Assembly (NCBI GenBank): GCA_020831805.1
Contig: JAFIFX010000007.1
Span: 1-64,000 of the forward strand
Origin: Planctomycetota bacterium
GTDB taxonomy: Bacteria; Planctomycetota; Phycisphaerae; Phycisphaerales; UBA1924
Reading direction: 5' to 3'
Length of the DNA: 64,000 bases
The position numbers and the translations under genes were made by a program. Below, piece by piece: positions 8,157-18,065 of this stretch. Under the pieces are notes generated by a model. The model did no database searches. It was given only the letters and a program-made list of their open reading frames with translations, and was not told the DNA's origin. Numbering within the stretch: the first letter of the stretch is position 1; each line of letters opens with the position of its first letter.

Positions 8157-8161
8157 GGGGG

Positions 8162-8167
8162 AGGATA
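8162..8167 (-). promoter_or_regulatory. -10 box TATCCT of the methyltransferase gene (leaderless)
   Basis: TATCCT ends 5 nt before the GTG start, and there is no room for a ribosome site. Confidence 0.6.
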
Positions 8168-8316
8168 GGGAACGGAGTGTGTGCCCCGGCGGTCAAGGGT
8201 GATTGAACGAATCCGGGTCGGCTTTGCAGCCCTTCCAGTCGCTCAAGAGGATGTTCACAGCGGATGTCCCTGCAGCCCAGTGTCAGCCACTTCGCGGCAC
8301 CCTAATAGTGTACCAC

Positions 8317-8343
8317 CTTCAAGGCGATCTCGCGGCCTTGAAG
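8317..8343 (-). terminator. Hairpin downstream of the RelA/SpoT-type gene
   Basis: CTTCAAGGC and GCCTTGAAG form a perfect 9-bp stem with a 9-nt loop, about 33 nt past the stop codon. There is no T-tract, so it may be a processing or Rho-linked structure. The rest of 8168-8375 shows no gene I can support. Confidence 0.4.
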
Positions 8344-8375
8344 TTCCAAAGACGATAGTTCGAAATAATACAAAA

Positions 8376-9407
8376 CTACGCCAAAGCCTCGCGTAGCTTA
8401 GACACAAAAAGCTTCGTGTCAAGAAAATAATTTGGATATGCGCGCTGCAATGATGCTAATGACTTTGACGCGACCAAGACCGTTTCGCCATATCCGTTTA
8501 AATAAAACCGTCGCTCTGATTCCATATAGTGATTGGTCGCGTCTTCAATATCCTTTTCGCCATACCAAGACAAAAGAAGAGAGCTTTCCAATCTGTTGAA
8601 CTCGAGTACATAGTAGCCTTTGCCGTGATTTGCGGAGCTATTCACTAGCCTAAAGGCTTCATTGTAATGTGAAAGTGCATTAAAGGCGGACAATTTTCGT
8701 TCAAGCGCAACAGTACGCCTAACTAGCTCGGAGTCGCTCCTGGGAGTATAGGGAATTCTTGGAGTATTCTCCTTCAGGGCGAGAACTGAGCTTGCCAAGG
8801 CAAAGAATCGCAGCCAAGACTTATCGCCCATCCCTGCCTTAAAATCACAATTATAAACGAGGCCCGCCGCTTCCACTGCAGTTGCCCAGGCGTGCTGAAT
8901 TCTTGATCTAATCTGCAACTCAATCAGGAGTCCGTTGTAGTCTGTATTCTTGTCACTAAAATAGCGATAAACAAGATGCAGACTTCTGTACCCAGATCGC
9001 TTTGGGCGATCAATGTGATCCACTATGGCTTTGAGGTTGTGGCGAATATCGCTCGATCTAATTTCTTCGTGCACCCTTCGTACTTCATTAATGTCTCTGA
9101 CGACGGCTCGGCAGCCTCCGATATCTTGGATTTGACTGAGATTGAACGTCGGCATTCGCTTGAGTTTTGAAATTATAGACGGACTTCTTTTGATTCTTTG
9201 CGCGATTGTCGCGCTCTCGTAGACGCGAGTGGAATACCTTCGGAGTGCATTCTGCATCGTGTTTAATGGGAATGCGTGGGCGGATCTCCAATTGTTGACG
9301 ATCTGAGTAGCGATCTCAATATCTTCAGGTGTTCCAACGCCGTCGGCTAGTAGTCTGCCAGCTCGATCGACAGAAGCTTTTGAGTGTTCTCGCTTTGCCC
9401 ACGCCAA
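8376..9407 (-). CDS. RelA/SpoT-domain nucleotidyltransferase (small alarmone synthetase-like)
   Basis: This 343-residue protein has a (p)ppGpp-synthetase-type fold at about residues 50-185. Visible motifs are RIKRSPSIISKLKR (71-84), Asp95 in QDIGGCR, the RSGYRSLH loop (137-144), and ELQIRSRIQHAW (163-174) with Glu163 as the second metal ligand. No hydrolase, TGS or ACT domain is present, so it is not a housekeeping Rel. The 150-residue C-terminal part is unassigned. Such stand-alone enzymes make (p)ppGpp or ppApp, or pyrophosphorylate tRNA; some act as toxins or phage defence. Its AT-rich composition contrasts sharply with both neighbours and suggests transfer. The start is TTG, fixed by an upstream in-frame stop and by the N-terminal S-x-x-x-R-AG motif. 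No obvious antitoxin ORF adjoins it. Confidence 0.85.
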   Translation of the reverse strand: MAWAKREHSKASVDRAGRLLADGVGTPEDIEIATQIVNNWRSAHAFPLNTMQNALRRYSTRVYESATIAQRIKRSPSIISKLKRMPTFNLSQIQDIGGCRAVVRDINEVRRVHEEIRSSDIRHNLKAIVDHIDRPKRSGYRSLHLVYRYFSDKNTDYNGLLIELQIRSRIQHAWATAVEAAGLVYNCDFKAGMGDKSWLRFFALASSVLALKENTPRIPYTPRSDSELVRRTVALERKLSAFNALSHYNEAFRLVNSSANHGKGYYVLEFNRLESSLLLSWYGEKDIEDATNHYMESERRFYLNGYGETVLVASKSLASLQRAYPNYFLDTKLFVSKLREALA

Positions 9408-9477
9408 TTTAAGAACCCTTGGTTAAGGAGGTGAGTAAGAAAAGTGTCATGAAGTGGAGTGGATCGGTCCGGTCCCG

Positions 9478-10695
9478 TTAATCCAACCAATCCTCCGCCT
9501 TCAACCGCGCCGGCACATACTCCTCCGTCACATAGGAGATGTCCTTGGTGATGAGGGATTCTACCTCCATCTTGAAGCCGTTGTCCAGCATGCGCTTGAT
9601 TTCCTTCTGCCAGCCTTTGTGGTCCTTGAACCACGGGTAGGCCGCGATCTGTTTGGCGCGTTGGATGTCGCGGTCGTTGAGGTCGATTTTGACATCGTCG
9701 GAGAGTTCGCAGCGGTCGTAGTCCATGGCGCGGATGCCCATGAACTTGGCGTCGGGGATGGCCAGGCGTTCGGACTCGAAGGCCAGGGAGATCGAGCCCT
9801 GTTTGATGACCGAGTAGATGTAGTGCCCCCAGGGGTCGCAGTCGAGCAGGCAGTAGATGGGCAGGTTGTGCTCCTTGTTGAGGCGGTGGAGCAGGCGGCG
9901 GACGCCGCGGGGGGGCTGGCCGGAGCCCTCGGTCAGGATGCAGTTGTGCTTCTCCCAGAAGCGGTCCTCGTTGAAGCGCTGCCAGACGGTGTCCTTTTCG
10001 ACATGCAGGACGAAGTCGGCCTGGACATTTTTGAACTGGAGGATGTCGGGCTCGCAGATGGAGGGGATGCCGTAGCCGCCGGTGCCCATGCGTCGGCAGT
10101 TGATCTCGTCGCCGTTGTCGATGACGGTGATGTTGCCGACCATGGTGCCGCGCTTCTTGGCGAAGACATGGAGCTCCTCGCGGAGCGAGCCGAGGGTGAC
10201 CTCGAGGTCCTCGAGGATGGTGTCGGACTCGGTCTGGTCGTCGAAGGTCTTTTCCTTGGTGCCCTCGATGGTGTGCAGGCCGGCGTAGAACATGCCGCGG
10301 AGGCTGGAGGTTTTGTTCTGCTCGATGAGGTTGATGATCCCGTTGGAGTGGATCAGGGTCTGCATGAACTTGCGGGCCTGCCCGAGGTTGAAGAGCTGGC
10401 GGGTGTTGGCCGCGTCGCCCATGCGGAGGATGCCGGCCTTCTTGTCCCACCGGGTGTTGGAGGCGGCCCGGGTGGGGACCTGGAACTCGGGCTCCGTGTT
10501 GGTCAGGGCGGCGGCGACGACGCCGTCGGCGAGCTGGTTGATCCGCCCGGCGGTGTGCTCGTCGCGGGCGGCGCGGTGGGCGGTTTTGGGGCGGGGGGGG
10601 GTCTTGGTGGACGCGCCGCCGGAGGACTTCGCGCCCGCGGCCTTTTTGGTGGTCTTCTTGCCGGAAGGTTTTTTGGTGGTGGTCTTTTTGGCCAT
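9478..10695 (-). CDS. top6A: DNA topoisomerase VI subunit A (Spo11-like)
   Basis: This 405-residue subunit cleaves and religates DNA in the heterotetrameric type IIB topoisomerase. The catalytic Tyr is Tyr137 in SLRGMFYAG. Toprim metal ligands are Glu233 (FVLHVEKD) and Asp285/Asp287 (LLDCDPWG). The first 40 residues are a basic Lys/Thr/Pro/Ala tail not typical of archaeal Top6A. It lies 2 nt downstream of the SUKH gene, with top6B further upstream on the same strand, so all four genes look co-transcribed. Confidence 0.93.
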   Translation of the reverse strand: MAKKTTTKKPSGKKTTKKAAGAKSSGGASTKTPPRPKTAHRAARDEHTAGRINQLADGVVAAALTNTEPEFQVPTRAASNTRWDKKAGILRMGDAANTRQLFNLGQARKFMQTLIHSNGIINLIEQNKTSSLRGMFYAGLHTIEGTKEKTFDDQTESDTILEDLEVTLGSLREELHVFAKKRGTMVGNITVIDNGDEINCRRMGTGGYGIPSICEPDILQFKNVQADFVLHVEKDTVWQRFNEDRFWEKHNCILTEGSGQPPRGVRRLLHRLNKEHNLPIYCLLDCDPWGHYIYSVIKQGSISLAFESERLAIPDAKFMGIRAMDYDRCELSDDVKIDLNDRDIQRAKQIAAYPWFKDHKGWQKEIKRMLDNGFKMEVESLITKDISYVTEEYVPARLKAEDWLD

Positions 10696-10697
10696 GG

Positions 10698-11225
10698 TCA
10701 ATCCTTGAACTTCTCGAAGAGCGGCCGGTACAGGCCCTTGACCTTGTTCATTCCGGGTTGCTGGTAGTCCCACTGGTGGAAGACGCTGCCGTGGCGTTTG
10801 GTTTCCTCGATCGCGCGGCGGAACCATTCGGCGAGGGAGGGGGCGACGATCGCGGTGCCGCGGCCGCTGTCGTGGTTGGAGCCGATGACGGAGCCTTCGG
10901 GGTAGACGGAGTCGCCCGCGTGGACGAGGTAGGTGAAGTCGCCGTTGCCCCAGTTGTGGAAGGAGACGGCTTTGTGGTCGGGGCCCTCGTCGTTCCAGAG
11001 GGCGTCGGCTTCCTGGACGCCGATGATCGAGAGGCCGAAAAAGTCGCCGCCGTCGCAGGAGCGCCAGAGGGCGATCAGGTCGGGGTGCAGGGCCGGGACA
11101 TGGGATTCGAGGCGGGCCTTGGCTTCGAGCCATTCGGGCTCTGGCAGGGGCGGGTTGAGGGTGCAGGTGGCGTCGTCGCCGAGGCGGAGTTTGCGGGCGG
11201 AATCGAGCAGGTCGGTGAGGTTCAC
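10698..11225 (-). CDS. SMI1/KNR4 (SUKH) family protein
   Basis: This 175-residue protein shows the SUKH pattern: PEPEWLEAKARLESHVPALHPDLIALWRSCDGGDF in the N-terminal half and GDSVYPEGSVIGSNHDSGRG in the second. SUKH proteins are often immunity proteins against polymorphic toxins, but many are housekeeping binders. The GTG start overlaps the stop of the upstream gene (GTGA). It sits between the two topo VI subunit genes. No toxin gene is adjacent. Confidence 0.8.
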   Translation of the reverse strand: MNLTDLLDSARKLRLGDDATCTLNPPLPEPEWLEAKARLESHVPALHPDLIALWRSCDGGDFFGLSIIGVQEADALWNDEGPDHKAVSFHNWGNGDFTYLVHAGDSVYPEGSVIGSNHDSGRGTAIVAPSLAEWFRRAIEETKRHGSVFHQWDYQQPGMNKVKGLYRPLFEKFKD

Positions 11226-11668
11226 GGGGTGTCCTCCGTGATCTGGGCGACCCGCCGTTTGATGGCCTCGACCGAGACGCATTCGCGGATTAGGCGGTCG
11301 ATGAGTTCTTCGTGCGGCCAGTCGCTGGTCGGTTCAAGGTAATGGCTGAGCACGCTGCACGCCCACATGTCTTCGGCCGCGGCCTTGATGACCTGGCGGA
11401 CGAGTTCGAGATGGGCTTGGTTGATTGGCTTGTCTTCGTGATACAGAATGGCGACGAGCACGGCATCCACCACCGACGACATGAAGACATCGTTGAGAGC
11501 GTGCCGGTGGGTCAAGTAGAAGCGGGCGAAGCGTTCGAGGTCGTGAGCGGTGGCGTATTGGGCCAGTCCGTCCTGGGCATACGCGTCGATCGTGATGCCG
11601 AGTTCGCGTTGGACGACCATTACCGCGTGGCCGTAGTCATCCTTCGGGTTGGATGGGGTGGTGGTCAT
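11222..11668 (-). CDS. Hypothetical helical protein in the topo VI cluster
   Basis: I do not recognise the family. The 148-residue product is predicted largely alpha-helical, without a signal peptide or membrane segment. It is coupled to the SUKH gene by a 4-nt overlap. An ATG five codons upstream (11683) is an alternative start. Codon use is less GC-extreme than in top6A or top6B. Confidence 0.7.
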   Translation of the reverse strand: MTTTPSNPKDDYGHAVMVVQRELGITIDAYAQDGLAQYATAHDLERFARFYLTHRHALNDVFMSSVVDAVLVAILYHEDKPINQAHLELVRQVIKAAAEDMWACSVLSHYLEPTSDWPHEELIDRLIRECVSVEAIKRRVAQITEDTP

Positions 11669-11728
11669 TCGTGTGCGGAGCATGCGGCAGTACGATCTTG
11701 CTGATGTCTTTGGGAGCTTGGCGGTGAG

Positions 11729-11782
11729 GGGCCGCTTCCTTCCGGGCGCGGCTTGTGTTTGTCCGGGCGCGGCTTGTGTTTA
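11729..11782. repeat. Repeat cluster at the 3' end of top6B
   Basis: Positions 11729-11756 are identical over 28 nt to 11916-11943 inside top6B. A 21-nt unit is also repeated in tandem at 11741-11761 and 11762-11782. The top6B stop codon lies in the last unit, so the gene end has been reshaped by local duplication. Confidence 0.85.
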
Positions 11783-13888
11783 GTCGTCACCGAAGAGGGC
11801 GGCGCCGGTGGGTTTGGTCTGGCGTTTCTTGGCAATCTTTTTGACGACCTTTTTCTTTTTGCGGGCGGCGGGGGTGGGAGGGTCGGACTTGGTGGGGTTC
11901 GACTTCGGCTTGGTTGGGCCGCTTCCTTCCGGGCGCGGCTTGTCGGGCAGGTCGGCCGGGGCGATCACGGGCTTGCCGTTGTCGCCGATGATGACGACAT
12001 CGTCGTCCTTGGCCAGGCGGCCGTGCTCGTCCTTGATGAAGCGGCCTTCCTCGTCGAGTTGGGCGTCGGCGATCTCGGTGCGGGCGCGGGCCTGTTCGAG
12101 CAGGGCGTTGTAGACCTGTTCGATCTCCGAGCCGGTGATGGCGTGGCAGGCCTTGGCGATCTCGCCGATGTAGCGCTCGAACACATCGCGCTTCTCGCCC
12201 TCGCGCTTCATGCGCTGGCGCCGGCGGACATACTGGCCGAGCTTGCGGCCGCACTCCTGCAGGGCGAGCTTCATCTCCTTGCGGATCTCGTCGTAGTCGG
12301 CGATGGCCTCCTTGGACTCGCTGGTGAAGGGGACCCAGACGGAGGCCATGTGGATCATGACGACGAGGGGGCCGACGGGGGCGCCGCCGCGGGGCTGCTG
12401 GAGGCCGTAGTTCTTCCAAGCGGTCTCGGTGACGGCCTTGAAGGACGAGCAGGCGGACTGCTGGTAGAGCAGCGGCACGCGGTTGGCGAAGCGGATGACG
12501 CGGGCGGACTGGTCGCCGGGCAGGTTGCCGCCGAAGGCGATGGCGCACTCGATGAGGAAGGGCCGGCCGCGGTAGACGGTCGCGACGCGGGTCGAGGCGG
12601 TGTAGAACTCGGCCTGGACGCCCTTGACCATGCCGGCGAGCATGGTTTTGACGCCGATGGGGGCCAGACAGTTGGTGGGGGGGTTGGGCAGCTTGGTGGC
12701 CTGCATGGCCTTGAAGAGGGCCTCGGCCTTGGCGTGGTCGATCGCGCCGACCTTGGTGCGGACGGGGATCTTGGCGTCGGCGCAGAGCTTGGAGGCCGTC
12801 GCGGGCGAGACGCGGGAGAAGCGGTCGGACAGGAAGGACGCGATGGTGGGGTTCTTCTGGTCGTGCTCGCTGTCGCGGAGCATCTGGAGGAGCATGCCGA
12901 GTTCGATGCCCTTGGGGTGGGGCATGATCTCCTGGGTCTCGGGGGGCAGCTCGGCCGTGCCGCGGGGGTAGATGATGACGCCCTTGTGCTCGGTGGTGTT
13001 GGTGGCGGCCAGGGCCTCGAGGTGGGAGGGGGCGACGGCGGAGTCAGGCTTGACGCCGCCGGACTCGGACGCGCCGGGGGCGAGGGTCGGGCCGTCCTCG
13101 TCGTCGGCGCCCCCCCCGGCGGCCTTGGTGGGCGGGACGAAGACGATGCGGGCGTGGGGGTTGGCGATGGCGGTCAGCTCGAGGAACTCGTCGACGGAGC
13201 CGCGGCCGCGCCGGTACTGGCCCTCGAGTTCGACGGTGACGCTGGTGCCGGTGGCGTAGATGGAGACGGGGAGGAACTCGCCGCCCAGGGCGAGCTCGCG
13301 GGTGCCGGCGGTCAGCTCGCGGAAGCGTGCGGGGGGGAAGTCGTCGGTCTCGGTGTCGACGGTGACCTCGGCGCGGTTGGTCTTGGTGTTCATGGCCAGC
13401 TCGATGTGGTGAGCCTTGGCCTTGGGGCTGGTGCGGGTGTGGATGACCATGGGCTTGCCGGTGGTCAGCAGGCCGTACATGCCGGCGGCGGAGATGCCGA
13501 TGCCCTGCTGGCCGCGGGACATCTTCAGGCGGTGGAACTTGGAGCCGTAGAGGAGGCGTCCGAAGATGTGCTCGACCTGCTTGCGGACGATGCCGGGGCC
13601 GTTGTCGGCGATGGTGACGCGGTACTTGGAGGACTTGGCGCTGGCCGGGCGATCGGGCTGGAGGTCCTCGATCACGACGGTGATGTCGGGGAGGATTTCG
13701 GCCTCCTCGCAGGCGTCGAGGGCGTTGTCGACGGCCTCCTTGACGGTGGTCAGGAGGGCCTTGCGGGGGTTGTCGAAGCCGAGCAGGTGGCGGTTCTTGG
13801 CGAAGAACTCCGAGACGGAGATCTCGCGCTGCTTGGCCGCCATGGTCTCGGCGGTGGCGCGCTGCTTGGATGCGGCTTTTTTGGCCAT
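11780..13888 (-). CDS. top6B: DNA topoisomerase VI subunit B (GHKL ATPase)
   Basis: This 702-residue ATPase subunit gates the DNA passage of topo VI. It carries the GHKL N-box (EAVDNALDA, 51-59), G1 box (DNGPG, 95-99) and G2 box (GQQGIGISAAG, 126-136), followed by a transducer domain. The WKxY motif typical of Top6B is present (AWKNYGL). The C-terminal 60 residues are rich in Lys and Pro (KKKKVVKKIAKKRQ), like the basic N-terminal tail of its partner. AAGGAGGGC lies about 6 nt before the chosen ATG. It shares one direction with the hypothetical, SUKH and top6A genes. Confidence 0.93.
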   Translation of the reverse strand: MAKKAASKQRATAETMAAKQREISVSEFFAKNRHLLGFDNPRKALLTTVKEAVDNALDACEEAEILPDITVVIEDLQPDRPASAKSSKYRVTIADNGPGIVRKQVEHIFGRLLYGSKFHRLKMSRGQQGIGISAAGMYGLLTTGKPMVIHTRTSPKAKAHHIELAMNTKTNRAEVTVDTETDDFPPARFRELTAGTRELALGGEFLPVSIYATGTSVTVELEGQYRRGRGSVDEFLELTAIANPHARIVFVPPTKAAGGGADDEDGPTLAPGASESGGVKPDSAVAPSHLEALAATNTTEHKGVIIYPRGTAELPPETQEIMPHPKGIELGMLLQMLRDSEHDQKNPTIASFLSDRFSRVSPATASKLCADAKIPVRTKVGAIDHAKAEALFKAMQATKLPNPPTNCLAPIGVKTMLAGMVKGVQAEFYTASTRVATVYRGRPFLIECAIAFGGNLPGDQSARVIRFANRVPLLYQQSACSSFKAVTETAWKNYGLQQPRGGAPVGPLVVMIHMASVWVPFTSESKEAIADYDEIRKEMKLALQECGRKLGQYVRRRQRMKREGEKRDVFERYIGEIAKACHAITGSEIEQVYNALLEQARARTEIADAQLDEEGRFIKDEHGRLAKDDDVVIIGDNGKPVIAPADLPDKPRPEGSGPTKPKSNPTKSDPPTPAARKKKKVVKKIAKKRQTKPTGAALFGDD

Positions 13889-14091
13889 CCATGCCCTCCT
13901 TGGCGTGGTGGTGGGTGGGAACGGTCGGGCGTGAAGGGAAGGATAGCGTGGATCGGCTGGTTTTGCCCGGTTGCGGGGCGTTTGCGGGCGGGCGTGGCCG
14001 GGGTTTGGGGAGATCTGGACGGGGTGAAGGCGTGGGCGGGCGCGCCTAGGCTTGCGGCCCCTAACCAATCACCAAGGATGAGGTAAACCCC

Positions 14092-16188: not shown

Positions 16189-16905
16189 TTACCCTCCTCC
16201 CCCTTTGGATTGGGCACTCCCTGTCCAACAATACATCTTCATTGAGAGCGACAATGACAGAAAAATGCCTCGCGCCAAGTCGTCTGAAACCACGCGATCG
16301 ATAGACTCCCGGGAGGCATCAAAGATGGGAACTGCCTCATCAAAGATCCTCTTTGCAGGAATCCTCCTTGTCACAATTCCCCGCAACAGATGGTAGGTTT
16401 GCGTGAAGGTTCCGGTGTTCGAGCCTGAGAGTCCAAACTCGGCCCGGCTGTCGAGGTCCACAACCCGAATATGCGACGGGATCAAGAGCCCCCCGTATGC
16501 CAGGCTGTACCGACGGCCGCAAACAACGACCTCGGGGCACAAAACACGGGACGAAACTCGTGGATCAGTCCGCGACATTCTGTGTGACATCCGAAAATGG
16601 GCGGAGGAAGATGCCGCGTGCCCGCGGATGAACACGCAGAAATCATAATCGTGCGCAGTTGAAAACGATGTCCACTTAGCAGAATGGATGAGCATGCTGC
16701 CCCCGTGAGCGACATGGTGATCAAACGGTTGACAAAAGACTGTTCCAACGCGCCTTCGGACAAGAAAGTTATCTGAAAACTCTGCAACTGCCCAAGGTTT
16801 CATTCCGAGGTGGTAAGGGCTCGTTAGAAGAGCACTCCAGCTCCGGATTGGGCCGCTGTCGATGTCTTCCGAGACTTCGCTCTGCAAGAACTCGGCATGG
16901 CTCAA
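16189..16905 (-). CDS. Hypothetical protein of the accessory patch
   Basis: I recognise no domain. The 238-residue frame is the only long one in a stretch of lower GC and reads like a soluble protein (VAHGGSMLIHSAKWTSFSTAHDYDFCVFIRGH; YSLAYGGLLIPSHIRVVDLDSR). No signal peptide is evident. It lies between repeat copies together with the degraded ORF at 16940-17432. Confidence 0.55.
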   Translation of the reverse strand: MSHAEFLQSEVSEDIDSGPIRSWSALLTSPYHLGMKPWAVAEFSDNFLVRRRVGTVFCQPFDHHVAHGGSMLIHSAKWTSFSTAHDYDFCVFIRGHAASSSAHFRMSHRMSRTDPRVSSRVLCPEVVVCGRRYSLAYGGLLIPSHIRVVDLDSRAEFGLSGSNTGTFTQTYHLLRGIVTRRIPAKRIFDEAVPIFDASRESIDRVVSDDLARGIFLSLSLSMKMYCWTGSAQSKGGGG

Positions 16906-17432: not shown

Positions 17433-18065
17433 TCATTTTTTTACACGACAAGGCATAACGCTTTTCTCCCTGTGATTTGGTGGAATTAAATTAGTCAAGA
17501 TAGCCCTTGAAGAGGTTATATCTACTATTTTAACATCATCAACCAGTATGCCATGATCACACAAATCACGGAGAAACTGTAGTGTTGAAGAGTGAGAGGG
17601 GAAAAATACGGTTCTCATCGCCGATCGATGATCTGTCGACGTAAAAGATATAGTGCCATATGGATCCCTGTTTAAATCGCGCGTGCGAAACCACGTTGCG
17701 TGACTGCCCGCTTTTACTTTTATTGTGATTGCTTTCTGGGAAGACGCATTGCCAATACATATGTTCAAGAAATTATCATTAACAAGGTCTGCGTGAACCG
17801 AATACGAAGGAGACTGCTTGATCAGTAGCAGCCTTATGTCTAGCAATAAAGCCATAGAGATGAACAATGGAATAAAAATCAGCGAAACAATAATAGTCAT
17901 TACCCACCAGTCCGTTCCTTGGCTGGTTAGTCCAATGAGAGCATACACAATGGCGCCGAGTAAAATTAATAGTAAGCATACTTTTGTTTCTCCCCAGGAA
18001 AACCAGGAGGACAGGGGTGACTTGGAACCGGAAGGTACAAATGAGATGGTCACAAAGTTCTCCAT
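17433..18065 (-). CDS. Hypothetical two-helix membrane protein (low GC)
   Basis: The 210-residue product has two membrane helices near residues 28-50 and 54-78 and a soluble domain of about 130 residues. I do not recognise the family. The gene is among the most AT-rich in the window and is flanked by the 37-nt repeat R1, which suggests recent acquisition. Confidence 0.65.
   Translation of the reverse strand: MENFVTISFVPSGSKSPLSSWFSWGETKVCLLLILLGAIVYALIGLTSQGTDWWVMTIIVSLIFIPLFISMALLLDIRLLLIKQSPSYSVHADLVNDNFLNICIGNASSQKAITIKVKAGSHATWFRTRDLNRDPYGTISFTSTDHRSAMRTVFFPSHSSTLQFLRDLCDHGILVDDVKIVDITSSRAILTNLIPPNHREKSVMPCRVKK

Follow-up and report, generated by a model that had tools for sequence, protein, structure and literature searches.

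The window analysed here, a stretch of 64,000 nucleotides from a planctomycete assembly, carries on its minus strand (positions 8376–9407) a gene for a 343-residue protein that we take, with a probability of about 85%, to be a horizontally acquired, single-gene fused CapRel toxin–antitoxin, in which a C-terminal domain would fold onto the toxSYNTH domain and a phage trigger would set off pyrophosphorylation of tRNA. Fused CapRels are already known, and this one is an added member. The assignment draws on Pfam, PADLOC, phmmer, structure and residue mapping. The reading frame (343 codons and a stop) is intact throughout and opens with TTG, a start backed by homologues whose alignments begin at residue 1. 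The toxSYNTH (toxin) domain covers residues ~1–216 (8760–9407, minus strand), as placed by PF04607, residue mapping and the structures of small alarmone synthetases. It is followed by a C-terminal anchor and pseudo-zinc-finger antitoxin/sensor domain of residues ~217–343 (8379–8759, minus strand), delimited from the 7ztb alignment, the helix–sheet order of the model and the sequence. Near its end lies a YPNY neutralisation motif of the YXXY type (residues 324–327; 8427–8438, minus strand), located by alignment to CapRel-SJ46 and by residue mapping.

The sole Pfam match of the protein is RelA_SpoT (PF04607; residues 70–186, E 1.1e-18), and neither an HD hydrolase nor a TGS or ACT domain was found by Pfam, in keeping with the original prediction of a stand-alone synthetase without a hydrolase domain. 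That prediction had regarded the C-terminal part as a domain of no recognisable kind, which does not hold: the last ~125 residues match the CapRel antitoxin/sensor domain. Its suggestion of a toxSAS or CapRel-like fusion, on the other hand, is supported by a full-length match to CapRel-SJ46 in both sequence and structure. In a phmmer search of the PDB the top matches were the CapRel entries 9erv and 7ztb (residues 7–334, E ~6e-37), with small alarmone synthetases next (E 4e-10, residues 68–191 only), and a tblastn search of phages placed the CapRel of Salmonella phage SJ46 first (E 7e-35; 96% of the query aligned at 29% identity). The PADLOC model PDC-S33 covers residues 1–342 of the 343 (385.3 bits, E 7.8e-116). 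An AlphaFold2 model built from a 38-row alignment (mean pLDDT 92.7, pTM 0.89) gave 7ztb as the first-ranked structure in Foldseek and again in VIA-align (Z 26.6, 278 aligned residues, rmsd 2.9), the latter alignment running from model residue 5 through the C-terminal part to residue 343; 9erv came second (Z 24.7). The best match outside CapRel was SAS1 of B. subtilis (Z 15.1), restricted to the front half (residues 34–214), and small alarmone synthetase structures as a class align to residues ~28–215. Since the CapRel matches run over nearly the full length and those of ordinary synthetases over the front half only, the C-terminal part can be identified as the CapRel antitoxin/sensor. There is no cysteine among residues 217–343, in line with a pseudo-zinc finger that has lost its zinc ligands. 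The Foldseek rmsd was judged an unsafe guide to whether the model is open or closed.

Some observations count against the CapRel assignment. Identity to the SJ46 protein is just 29–31%, and in a quick tree the window protein falls in no supported subclade with SJ46. The same tree, which has long outgroup branches and an ingroup chosen by similarity, separates 142 CapRel-type rows, SJ46 included, from four other synthetases of this bacterial order with an SH-aLRT of 99. The tree and the residue counts given below omit three of the 80 genome loci, which have broken or cut frames, and the row of one full-length relative (genome G017) starts a few codons past its likely start.

One competitor is a housekeeping small alarmone synthetase of the RelP/RelQ kind, which would make (p)ppGpp and whose tail would be an unrelated regulator. 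All synthetase motifs are present, no other gene of its genome matches RelA_SpoT, and ordinary small alarmone synthetases do match the front half, all as this explanation would have it. Against it, the NCBIfam model YjbM (RelP/RelQ) gives 52.9 bits, far under its cut-off of 320, and spoT_relA, the model for long RSH proteins, gives 32 bits against a cut-off of 499.2; the tail is a CapRel antitoxin and the composition of the gene is foreign. Its distribution points the same way. PF04607 is present in 10 of 101 genomes including its own; the nine other PF04607 genes of relatives include one, in G032 (L004), that was missed by the motif filter and lies outside the present reading. With the window protein as query, matches were obtained in 3 of 100 relatives, of which only G017 is full length (35% identity), and a family profile matches 3 of 392 genomes of the phylum (its own, G196 and G136). 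The gene is absent from both same-genus genomes (G001 and G002), so that the housekeeping clade with conserved synteny, for which a search was made, was not found. On family scores, distribution and synteny the housekeeping synthetase was rejected, and we consider it highly improbable. Two RelA_SpoT domains from the same order and family (L006 in G093 and L010 in G055) head long proteins with TPR-like repeats (frames of 705 and 674 aa) that, by eye, are neither CapRel nor long RSH.

The synthetase core is intact, as had been predicted: R71, R100 and the G-loop Y140 correspond to R79, R116 and Y155 of SJ46, and all three are kept in each of the 142 family rows. For CapRel-SJ46 it has been described that A77K, R116A, V338A, L339A, A341K, A351K, Y352A and Y355A each turned the protein toxic (PMC9712102). 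In the alignment of the 142 rows, all eight of these autoinhibition residues are identical in the window protein (A69, R100, V310, L311, A313, A323, Y324 and Y327, respectively), although the eight identities do not amount to eight independent tests, because the lock residues are family-wide. The YPNY motif aligns with SJ46 residues 352–355, where the two tyrosines are replaced by F in some family rows: 10 of them at Y352 (Y in 132) and 4 at Y355 (Y in 138). Together with the YPNY motif, the eight identities support a self-inhibitory C-terminal part, as had been proposed. The surface that meets the trigger is different: of the two SJ46 contacts compared, L280 and L307, the first falls in a gap and the second is replaced by Ser276, and neither is conserved, as would be expected if the sensor face keeps changing along with the phages it meets. 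The model has a short separate helix at residues 325–328, inside the YPNY motif, and a 3-10 helix at the YXXY motif is described for the closed state of CapRel-SJ46 (PMC9712102); as a sign of a closed state the predicted helix is given little weight.

From these residues the window protein would be expected to be both catalytically active and autoinhibited, and by analogy with CapRel-SJ46 a closed state, a tRNA target, a phage trigger and abortive infection can be proposed. Without infection, the pseudo-zinc-finger domain at the C-terminus would fold onto the N-terminal toxSYNTH, placing YPNY between R71 and R100 and so blocking the ATP donor site. Binding of a phage protein to the variable sensor face would swing the C-terminal domain away and admit ATP, and the released enzyme would then transfer pyrophosphate to the 3'-CCA end of tRNA, halting translation and aborting phage production. 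A CapRel-shaped toxSAS could instead have toxic (pp)pApp, and not modified tRNA, as its product, as other toxSAS enzymes do (PMC9712102, PMC11782079), and the acceptor is not readable from sequence alone. However, a donor-blocking YXXY antitoxin is described as going with tRNA-targeting toxSAS (PMC11782079), and CapRel-SJ46, the closest studied relative, is reported to modify tRNA (PMC9712102), so we regard (pp)pApp as an improbable product and retain tRNA as the likely target.

The gene stands out from its surroundings, as had been noted from its AT-richness and foreign composition. Its GC is 0.469 and its GC3 0.483, against a GC3 of 0.79–0.94 in six flanking housekeeping genes, and a GC this low occurs in 2 of 630 segments of 1032 bp (z = -4.0). 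The adjoining topo VI cluster lies upstream on the same strand (topo VI A, 9478–11133; topo VI B, 11780–14068), and the downstream neighbour encodes an RlmL-like methyltransferase. In same-genus genomes, DNA similarity to the window extends up to 8169, inside the intergenic region between the RlmL-like gene and CapRel (8157–8375), and resumes on the other side at ~9470–9506, where readable; in the intergenic region between CapRel and topo VI A (9408–9477), similarity to same-genus and same-family genomes stops near 9470–9480. Because the similarity breaks at these two places, the CapRel stretch would be the part missing from the same-genus genomes, although in both of them (G001 and G002) the two flanks of the site sit on separate contigs. 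Among the best 80 of at least 557 relatives encoded in genome contigs, the GC of the gene is below that of its flanks at 75 loci, and AT-richness therefore goes with the CapRel family. The window CapRel is probably a recent import.

It could be supposed that the newly acquired gene is no longer expressed or active. The TTG start, the lack of a strong ribosome-binding site ahead of it (by eye), the lack of a convincing promoter or terminator, and a composition yet to adapt all favour such a decayed state, and the missing expression signals also count against the CapRel explanation itself. The frame, however, is intact, and all family-invariant catalytic residues and all checked lock residues are retained, so that an inactive gene appears quite unlikely and a functional CapRel remains the preferred reading.

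With regard to the site, topo VI A is conserved in this bacterial order (19 of 21 genomes), and in the window copy of topo VI (9478–14068) ~190 residues precede the region matched by NCBIfam models. The idea that the 3' end of topo VI A serves generally as a hotspot for cargo was not supported, since only G001, of 17 relatives, has an AT-rich insert there. In that genome another AT-rich gene (GC 0.50; L220, 7735–9606, on contig C98) directly follows topo VI A and matches the phage-defence candidate PDC-S39 of PADLOC, DUF4209 (E 6.6e-40). The window itself has a second AT-rich stretch at 16–18 kb, with ORFs at 17433–18065 and 16189–16905, neither of which has a Pfam match; the 210-aa ORF of this stretch has a GC of 0.42, two apparent membrane segments and a weak PADLOC match to PycTM (E 0.02).

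As predicted, no small ORF that might encode an antitoxin adjoins the window CapRel. The flanks of 77 homologues comprise 139 genes, among them restriction, Fic and transposase genes, with no recurrent partner, and this supports a one-gene system; a two-gene toxin–antitoxin with a hidden partner was rejected on the same two grounds. The commonest flanking family is a lipoyl ligase (7 of 139), which is not antitoxin-like and whose count may stem from near-identical loci of the Gemmatimonadota type. The homologue of G136 (L233) is arranged differently: a 241-aa toxin ORF is followed by an 87-aa ORF in another frame (1432–2157 and 1166–1429, respectively), and in hhalign the latter aligns with residues 263–329 of the fused family (probability 77.5, E 1.9e-5) but is without YXXY. 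It is possibly a split CapRel within the same phylum, or it may be a frameshifted fused gene.

Whom the switch serves is a separate question. The same switch could be a selfish or superinfection-exclusion gene left by a mobile element and kept for the element rather than for host defence. The gene is AT-rich and sporadic, and its relatives are common on viral contigs (126 encoding stretches, of which the best 80 were examined and 24 of those, mostly near-duplicates, left unused) and on plasmids (99 records); an IS1595-type transposase domain is matched by 6 of the 139 genes that flank homologues, and a phage integrase domain by 3. No defence gene adjoins the window CapRel, its neighbours being topo VI and the RlmL-like methyltransferase, and this counts against the defence reading. 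On the other side, the neighbourhood of the window gene yielded neither an integrase or transposase nor an attachment repeat, and the idea of a prophage or insertion sequence here was rejected for want of an attachment repeat or integrase. In addition, two homologues, one at family and one at phylum level, lie within or beside restriction–modification genes: that of G196 sits between hsdM and hsdS and overlaps both, and that of G017 begins 6 nt past an AT-rich gene for an N6/N4-methylase with an Mrr domain. Service to a mobile element is thus a possibility to be kept in mind, if an unlikely one, and use of the CapRel as host antiphage defence is likely.

The relatives extend to assemblies from outside the bacteria. 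The best 80 genome loci include ten from archaeal and three from CPR assemblies. The full-length relatives from assemblies of DPANN-type archaea (L154, L182, L189, L192, L195, L198, L200, L204, L208 and L209) group with two CPR rows in a single branch (SH-aLRT 99). The gene of L154 lies on a 771-kb contig with an integrase adjoining it, and that of L209 has the archaeal protein Nre as its neighbour, which argues against simple contamination for L209 alone. The CapRel phyla given in PMC9712102 are all bacterial and the word 'archaea' is absent from its main text; in the open-licence literature, no report was found of either a CapRel or a toxSAS from Planctomycetota, from archaea or from DPANN. 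Another branch, tight and mostly of Gemmatimonadota (L159, L162, L163, L166, L168, L175, L184, L186 and L197), differs from most homologues in that the GC of its genes is about that of their flanks, and it has perhaps been vertically kept.

The host is likely to belong to Planctomycetota: its 16S shows 83% identity over 1191 nt to the genome of a named assembly of that phylum, as against 72–76% for the three other genomes matched over 800 nt, the rest of the ten genomes compared having yielded short pieces or nothing. CapRel is the sole RelA/SpoT synthetase domain in its genome, which is without a long RSH, and across the phylum a long RSH scores over the cut-off in 1 of 246 genomes, as against 10 of 14 control genomes; most of the 109 other phylum genomes with a match to the long RSH model match it at the HD end only. 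A 2011 survey found zero RSH in the single planctomycete covered, and its authors state PVC bacteria to be without Rel (PMC3153485). The genome does encode one stand-alone HD protein (contig C8, 41309–41572; L219) of the small alarmone hydrolase, MESH1-like kind, and the HD domain PF13328 occurs in 37 of 61 genomes searched. FtsZ_C was found in none of 41 genomes of this kin, its own included, versus 13 of 14 controls. The CapRel of Enterobacter chengduensis, CapRel-Ebc, is described as sensing T7 Gp0.4 bound to host FtsZ (PMC13423816), and because that trigger needs FtsZ, which is absent here, the window CapRel must sense something else. It could be speculated, though we hold it to be rather doubtful, that CapRel is a cross-domain immune switch in cells without any (p)ppGpp synthetase, such as this planctomycete, lacking FtsZ and Rel, and the DPANN/CPR clade, and that the HD hydrolase could strip the pyrophosphate from tRNA, making the outcome reversible dormancy and not death. 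As a defence gene the window CapRel is one among several hundred relatives and hence modest alone, but it lends itself to asking whether CapRel depends on anything from the stringent-response or FtsZ machinery, and what the orphan HD hydrolases of the phylum act on.

Among known systems, the window protein resembles CapRel-SJ46 (7ztb, 9erv) in its two-domain fusion, near-whole-length fold, catalytic residues, YPNY lock and eight autoinhibition residues. It differs in being only 29–31% identical, in its shorter sensor loops and altered positions (L280 to a gap, L307 to Ser276), and in its setting, as CapRel-SJ46 is a phage gene whereas the window CapRel is chromosomal, in a probable planctomycete. 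With CapRel-Ebc it shares the fused architecture, but the FtsZ-dependent route described for that protein would be closed in a host without FtsZ. From PDC-S33, a single-gene phage defence candidate, there is no evident difference, the profile spanning residues 1–342; no paper naming PDC-S33 was found, and the PADLOC model, as a candidate, carries no mechanism. RelP and RelQ share the synthetase fold (window residues ~34–214) but are without the antitoxin domain, and the window protein scores far under their curated cut-off. FaRel2:ATfaRel2, as described, is likewise a tRNA-targeting toxSYNTH restrained by an ATP-blocking YXXY antitoxin, but it is encoded by two separate genes, whereas the window CapRel is one polypeptide.
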